Below, in pieces: positions 3,110-3,451 of a stretch of DNA of 64,000 nucleotides (the first letter of the stretch is position 1; every line of letters starts with the position of its first letter). The position numbers and the translations under genes were made by a program. The DNA is from Haloarcula rubra (GTDB lineage: Archaea; Halobacteriota; Halobacteria; Halobacteriales; Haloarculaceae). The stretch spans positions 744,001 to 808,000 of the forward strand of contig NZ_RKLR01000001.1 in NCBI RefSeq assembly GCF_019599465.1. Reading direction: 5' to 3'. The notes under the pieces were generated by a model. It was given only the letters and a program-made list of their open reading frames with translations, was not told the origin of the DNA and searched no databases.

Positions 3110-3331
3110 GTCGGTCGGTTACAGACCCGGAAGACGCCGTACTGTAGCCGAGTAACCGACCGACACGGGTGGGACTGAAAGGGGCTGACCGCTCGGCGTT
3201 CGAGATCGTTCGAAAGGCGCAAAGCGCCTTTCGTGATGACGAGAGAGCTTTGCTCTCTCGAACCACGACGCAAGCACGCGAACGGAGTGAGCGCGCAGCG
3301 AGTCACAGTAGCCGAGCGGTCGGGGGCTTTC
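3110..3331 (+). other. Highly folded intergenic element, candidate structured RNA
   Basis: The gap 2997-3451 has no convincing gene but nested perfect inverted repeats. First stem: GTCGGTCGGTTAC at 3110-3122 pairs with 3152-3164. Then comes GGGACTGAAAGGGG (3171-3184). GACCGCTCGGC at 3187-3197 pairs with 3311-3321 and encloses two tight hairpins: CGAAAGGCGC-AAA-GCGCCTTTCG (3211-3233) and CGAGAGAGC-TTT-GCTCTCTCG (3240-3260). GAAAG at 3177-3181 can also pair with CTTTC at 3327-3331. This is far more pairing than chance. It could be a small RNA, a processed leader or a non-mobile repeat. The strand is not proven; + is assumed because the next gene is on +. The remaining bases 3332-3451 hold only the promoter of the next gene (TTATC at 3423). 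Confidence 0.45.
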
Positions 3332-3451
3332 TGCCTGTTCACAGCGTGGCCCGAACGATTCAGGAGATAGGCGACGCCACTCACGGCTAGCACGCCACTC
3401 GCTAGCGCGGGCATCAGGACCCTTATCACTCGACAGCCTCCTATCCCGCAT

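Follow-up and report, generated by a model that had tools for sequence, protein, structure and literature searches.

What is the nest of perfect hairpins that lies between two genes of Haloarcula rubra? An earlier note on the window, as we call the whole 64,000-nucleotide stretch of DNA analysed here, proposed a non-coding RNA or a repeat at positions 3110-3331. That observation is confirmed, and there is more here than it describes. Genome BLAST, 15-mer scans and class-wide spread prove the repeat part of the proposal. On balance, we lean towards reading the feature as one arm of a non-autonomous, structured haloarchaeal repeat, similar to REPINs and SMRs, that is maintained as a folded single strand and recognised in trans.

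A folded repeat copy between two genes

The repeat copy at 3171-3331 is intergenic and flanked by two plus-strand genes. We take the genes on either side of 3110-3331, from sequence recognition, to encode an agmatinase/SpeB-type protein and a PIN-domain ATPase. None of 200 dinucleotide shuffles folds as well as the 241-base region, on either strand (z = -4.8 and -5.9). By direct sequence check, we observed a 10-bp hairpin, CGAAAGGCGC-AAA-GCGCCTTTCG, at 3211-3233 and a 9-bp hairpin, CGAGAGAGC-TTT-GCTCTCTCG, at 3240-3260, both as first described. The 11-bp enclosing stem (3187-3197 with 3311-3321) was also confirmed and reaches 3185 and 3323 through one T-G pair. The GGGACTGAAAGGGG stretch was found where it had been placed, and the coding reading of 3169-3390, previously dismissed as a non-gene, was rejected because the frame runs through the folded structure. 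A separate 13-base stem fared less well: the inverted repeat itself (3110-3122 with 3152-3164, spanning 3110-3164) was recovered independently, but it is not conserved, is absent from the same-site copy L182 and, from this comparison, probably lies outside the structure.

Comparison with other copies divides the plus-strand arm into parts. The conserved head GGGACTGAAAGGGGC (3171-3185) contains GAAAG at 3177-3181, the 5' side of the closing helix P0, whose partner CTTTC lies at 3327-3331. The hypervariable helix P1 has its 5' side at 3185-3197 and its 3' side at 3311-3323, the latter placed by family covariation and by the covariance-model match to 3171-3331. A conserved internal loop, defined by comparison of 135 arms, is formed by GACGCAA (3267-3273) and GCAGCGA (3295-3301) and encloses helix P3 with a variable apical part (3274-3294). 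The arm closes with the conserved tail GGGGCTTTC (3323-3331), recognised by comparing copies, and is followed by the right outer end TGCCTGTT at 3332-3339 (usually TGGCTGTT in this genus), assigned by outer-end matching in two-armed copies. Upstream of the head, positions 3139-3170 correspond to the element centre, which terminates in a conserved GGGT and has the same position and sequence type (GTAGCCGGTTGATCAA...GGGT) in two-armed copies. By-eye comparison with L182 (GGAACCAGAAAACGCC), L049, L042 and two-armed copies places a degenerate left end at 3121-3138, a putative boundary, and identifies it as a collapsed left arm (cf. ACAGCCAGAAAGCCCC). Read in this way, the window copy is the right arm only, the left arm apparently having been lost.

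Stems vary and remain paired

The head GGGTGGGACTGAAAGGGGC and tail GGGGCTTTC are common to the copies, and the intervening stem varies yet stays complementary. Each arm has the conserved ends GGGACTGAAAGGGG...GGGGCTTTC and a P1 stem of ~12 bp that is copy-specific and paired. An initial collection of 144 arms yielded 107 distinct 10-nt stems, in which 9.3 of 10 positions pair, compared to 5.5 after partner shuffling. P1 occurs as 161 distinct stems among 259 arms, and 11 of its 12 pairs have changed on both sides.

The earlier note had named compensatory stem changes as a test, and the result was decisive. For the 22 pairs of P1-P3 over 56 arms, 93.5% of cells are paired, compared to 67.8 ± 0.9 when shuffled. 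Double-changed cells number 319 (106 ± 10 shuffled), and the covariation score is 0.633 (0.179 ± 0.012 shuffled). Sliding the partner by 1-3 columns lowers this score to ≤0.097, a control in which the structure is somewhat favoured, having been derived from the same sequences, although the effect size is far larger. P3 is paired in 97.3% of cells across the family, and P0 has compensatory variants (GAAAG/CTTTC, CAAAG/CTTTG and GGAAG/CTTCC, the last in L066 and L363). When 135 arms were anchored on two motifs, P2 and P3 fell into a single register flanking an internal loop of 7 x 7 nucleotides (GAYGYAA over RCAGCGA). Tandem mismatches lie on its P2 side: G-A in 135/135 and A-G in 125/135. The stems vary and nearly always pair; thus it is the folded single strand that is preserved, not its sequence.

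The family spans the Halobacteria

Such stretches had been said to recur in haloarchaeal genomes, and they do. The exact 15-mer GGGACTGAAAGGGGC is present in 154 of 292 Halobacteria genomes, at 0 to 74 copies per genome; the reversed 15-mer gave one chance match in one of these genomes. The exact 15-mer misses Halorubrum-like genomes, which carry a variant head, so their zero counts are artefactual. A scan of named genomes returned matches almost exclusively from haloarchaea, among them many named species. The genome of the window itself contains 11 places by BLAST with the region, 6 exact 15-mers, and 13 matches with ≤2 mismatches compared to 5 for the reversed control.

Within a phylum sample, a covariance model trained on 56 copies, the search proposed at the outset, was positive in 30 of 33 Halobacteria and in none of the 164 other genomes; a per-genome figure of 19 in the corresponding table means at least 19. 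In the window's own genome, the model detects 9 arms, among them 3171-3331 (56.6 bits, E 1.5e-10). This score is only 56.6 bits because of a module inserted in the arm, and no further credible arm was detected by the model within the 64-kb window.

Twenty-three haloarchaeal plasmids carry the element, nearly always at unannotated, gene-free spots. We rejected a viral origin, as neither IMG/VR viral contigs nor INPHARED phages gave a match. Patchy copy number, carriage on plasmids, intergenic location and absence from phages and viral contigs all support the mobile-element reading. Rfam yielded no family match in the region, at the gathering threshold or at E up to 1, and the covariance models of the IS605 omegaRNAs RF02656 and RF02657 had no match there. 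A known RNA family was rejected, the only Rfam matches being weak, miRNA-like and attributable to chance. The 15-mer was in none of the papers searched, which held analogues only; subscription papers and supplements lay outside this search. As far as searched, the family is undescribed, and a prior description, for example among SMRs, is possible.

Genomic context and the search for a partner

Of 105 element places, 94 are intergenic, and their mix of gap types (convergent, divergent and tandem) equals the background, with genes called by a simple codon-bias script for this test and for that of direction. The intergenic position and the strong fold would suit a cis-acting element of transcription termination or mRNA stability, with a role like that of REP/BIME. 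Convergent gaps, however, are not enriched (19 of 94 element places compared to 51 of 258 background gaps), which led us to reject a terminator role, and we regard a cis-acting element as highly improbable.

No partner enzyme was found: presence of Y1_Tnp/RAYT (PF01797) does not track copy number. PF01797 is missing from the high-copy genomes G089, G165, G199, G232, G147 and G026 and present in many zero-copy genomes, and several genomes without it have 11-65 exact heads. A RAYT/Y1 transposase was rejected as partner since no correlation appeared between 24 high-copy and 24 zero-copy genomes, some of the latter later proving to hold variant-head copies; the lack of PF01797 in several high-copy genomes is unaffected by this.

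Arms are arranged in pairs around a centre

Many copies are head-to-head pairs of arms around a centre, with a head-to-head spacing of 50-61 nt in most. As deduced from these copies, the full element is composed of outer end, arm, centre, arm and outer end, the outer ends being complementary. In two-armed copies, the left outer end matches the right one at 6.31 of 8 positions compared to 5.03 when shuffled (maximum 5.88 in 1000 shuffles), a difference to which genus effects contribute. Simple arms with P0 and P1 are mostly ~100-127 bp long, and the entire element in the Halorubrum-like genome G009 measures ~345 bp.

Several variants and neighbours were observed. A second type of arm loop, CCCCTATC-hairpin-GATATGTCGCTGAGCGACC, occurs with the same ends and P1 in L020, L024, L033, L041 and L043. 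A third arm, with ends CCTCCCCAGCCG/CGGCTGGGGAGG, lies inside the centre in L115 (2560-2900), L151 (830-1600), L081 (2300-2800) and L365-L384. We rejected a cargo gene between the arms, since wide centres contain either this third arm (CCTCCCCAGCCG...CGGCTGGGGAGG) or ordinary genes. L361, L377, L380 and L381 have tandem units of ~72 bp on the right side of the tail; each unit contains a TATA-like CATTTATAAG and a repeated GGCTGGGGCTTTGGAGGTGTTC. L348 and L353 (G000 C37, ~10.6 and 14.2 kb), two arm copies separated by 3.6 kb, have a longer repeat (GGGCGCGGGCGGTGCGGAGAGCGCCCGC...) in front of them. In two genomes (L185, upstream of the ATPase gene, and L364), GTGCGATCG hairpins are bordered by a short palindromic repeat, CTATAGTAGC...GTTACTATAG, possibly a MITE. 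The motif ACTGAAAG presumably resembles CRISPR 3' handles.

Copies differ at orthologous sites

L182, the copy of the nearest relative (ATPase 98% identical), is the same element with its module at the SpeB-ATPase site. In a 92% relative, the element is present with a different stem and lacks the module, and a third relative has both genes and no element. At the htpX site, 30 congeners display two-armed, left-only, right-only, fully collapsed, remnant and empty forms. Fully collapsed cores are rare among the DNA examined. The sister copies L226 and L228 at the htpX site are distinguished by one arm, whose cut falls exactly at the base of the hairpin; no target duplication accompanies this difference, which may be a deletion. 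The stems at the htpX site differ, and mismatched intermediates occur (L227). None of three loci examined for a clean empty site with a target duplication showed one, and every orthologous difference could be explained as loss of an old element.

In the Halorubrum-like genomes G009 and G027, which have many copies each, those compared share one species-specific stem, and two arms at unrelated loci of G009 are identical to each other. Within the window's genus, nearly all copies within a genome have their own stem, and amplification there is therefore not recent.

Such observations also bear on a passive origin. Palindrome correction by template switching is established, and the repeat could be palindromic DNA without recognition or function: template switching during replication would maintain its self-complementarity, and gene conversion in the polyploid haloarchaea would homogenise its copies. 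Arm loss at the hairpin base (L226 compared to L228) and the mismatched stem intermediates of L227 agree with this. It leaves unexplained the near-invariant unpaired loop nucleotides, the ends conserved exactly across the class and the asymmetry of the head strand described below, and we consider it improbable.

The double hairpins are an inserted module

The two tight hairpins had been presented as enclosed by the stem. Their location holds; as parts of the element they do not, since they belong to a separate mobile module inserted at 3206-3265, which is missing from the orthologous copy L186. A 96% identical 67-bp copy of the module lies at G000:C12:18092-18157, an unrelated position inside another repeat copy. 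Near-identity of this 60-bp module at two unrelated positions indicates that it moves or is copied.

The 60-bp pattern GTCGTTCGA-stem-TCGTGATGACGA-stem-TCGAACCAC, whose stems vary, was seen repeatedly (3206-3265; L002, L006, L007, L010 and L011), both in the arms and in short palindromes belonging to a different repeat (CCTCGGG...CCCAAGG) that resembles IS605/PATE ends. Palindromes of this PATE/IS605-like type host the module; the arm itself is not clearly within them.

The head strand is distinct from its complement

Among non-Watson-Crick cells of P1, read on the head strand, G-T exceeds A-C (60 vs 20), G-A exceeds C-T (28 vs 9) and G-G exceeds C-C (31 vs 7). Loops are A-rich on the same strand (A 3617 vs T 1479), in paired and single arms alike. 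Taken together, the mispair bias and the A-rich loops favour folding of a single strand, the head strand, rather than a cruciform of both strands. The P1 mispair pattern could also be attributed to strand-biased loss of C.

This asymmetry is where the main rival of the mobile-element reading enters, a new class of structured non-coding RNA. The arm would be transcribed from the head strand, adopt the P0-P3 fold and bind a protein at its internal loop, and head-to-head pairs would represent divergent transcripts from the centre. An RNA would account for the P1 bias and the A-rich loops, for the near-invariant internal loop with its tandem G-A/A-G and for the compensatory covariation of the helices. 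Single arms in tandem gaps are also co-directional with genes (40:21, p = 0.02), a weak effect. However, wobble bias is absent from P2/P3 (G-T 42 vs A-C 49), two-armed copies have one arm in each sense around a centre without an obvious TATA box, and copy number varies widely among close relatives. No gene association was seen, and Rfam had no match. We hold an RNA class to be a tentative and rather unlikely explanation.

Relation to known elements

Integron attC sites have conserved ends and a variable stem with preserved pairing, and are recognised as a folded strand. The haloarchaeal element follows the same logic of ends and stem; it has other end motifs and does not sit in cassette arrays. 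We know of no conserved internal loop of this kind in mitochondrial double-hairpin elements. The latter, as outlined in PMC2800124 with reference to Paquin 2000, are likewise dispersed hairpins with an unclear mobility mechanism and a frequency that differs between close species, and those of Allomyces are described there as lacking flanking duplications; they differ in being organellar.

REPINs, the REP doublets of bacteria (PMC3116915, PMC3733652), are closer. As in REPINs, two inverted units, each with a short conserved head next to a hairpin, surround a centre, and the copies are intergenic, numerous and found in single and double forms with a clover-like fold. The haloarchaeal element differs by its copy-variable stem, long multi-helix arms, conserved internal loop and complementary outer ends, and by the lack of co-occurrence with a Y1 (RAYT) transposase. 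SMR-A of Haloquadratum is ~110 bp long, with terminal inverted repeats, tens of copies, no known transposase and no reported target duplication (PMC3119063). The arms share with it the length of ~110 bp, too short for a gene, the prominent inverted terminal repeats, the tens of copies, the lack of a known transposase and the nested hairpins; no target duplication was seen here, but the L226-L228 difference may be a deletion. SMR families have high sequence conservation and are targeted into PATE/IS605 palindromes (PMC3119063), whereas the arms here are stem-variable and class-wide, a distinction drawn from the SMR description. PATEs have IS605-related ends without inverted terminal repeats (PMC3119063), unlike the two-armed elements with their complementary outer ends. 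It is the inserted 60-bp module that resembles the PATE, IS605 TnpB-end and omegaRNA type (PMC3119063, PMC12558985), by the double hairpins in palindromes of L006, L007, L010 and L011.

Discussion

Our preferred reading, a mobile repeat recognised in trans, suggests the following mechanism. The arm would fold from its own head strand into P0, the hypervariable P1, P2, the GA-type internal loop, P3 and an apical hairpin. A trans-acting protein might recognise the folded single strand by reading its invariant ends and internal loop. Such recognition would require only that P1 be paired, so that the stem could drift in sequence through compensatory changes. It would also amplify or homogenise copies, giving one shared stem per species as in Halorubrum-like genomes. 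Arms are lost at the hairpin base, as replication slippage predicts.

A more far-reaching interpretation, which we judge unlikely, is a new class of effector near-universal in Halobacteria, either structured RNA or single-stranded DNA. Up to dozens of copies per genome would have the invariant recognition core in common, and the private stem of each would serve as a variable address or be free because a haloarchaeal protein reads the fold only.

In conclusion, nearly every sampled haloarchaeal genome has a structure with very strong covariation and without an Rfam entry, and the covariance model can be used immediately to annotate Halobacteria. The RNA and mobile-DNA readings are both testable, as laboratory haloarchaea are genetically tractable. 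The finding raises the testable question of what copies and maintains short, pairing-conserved repeats that have no known transposase travelling with them.
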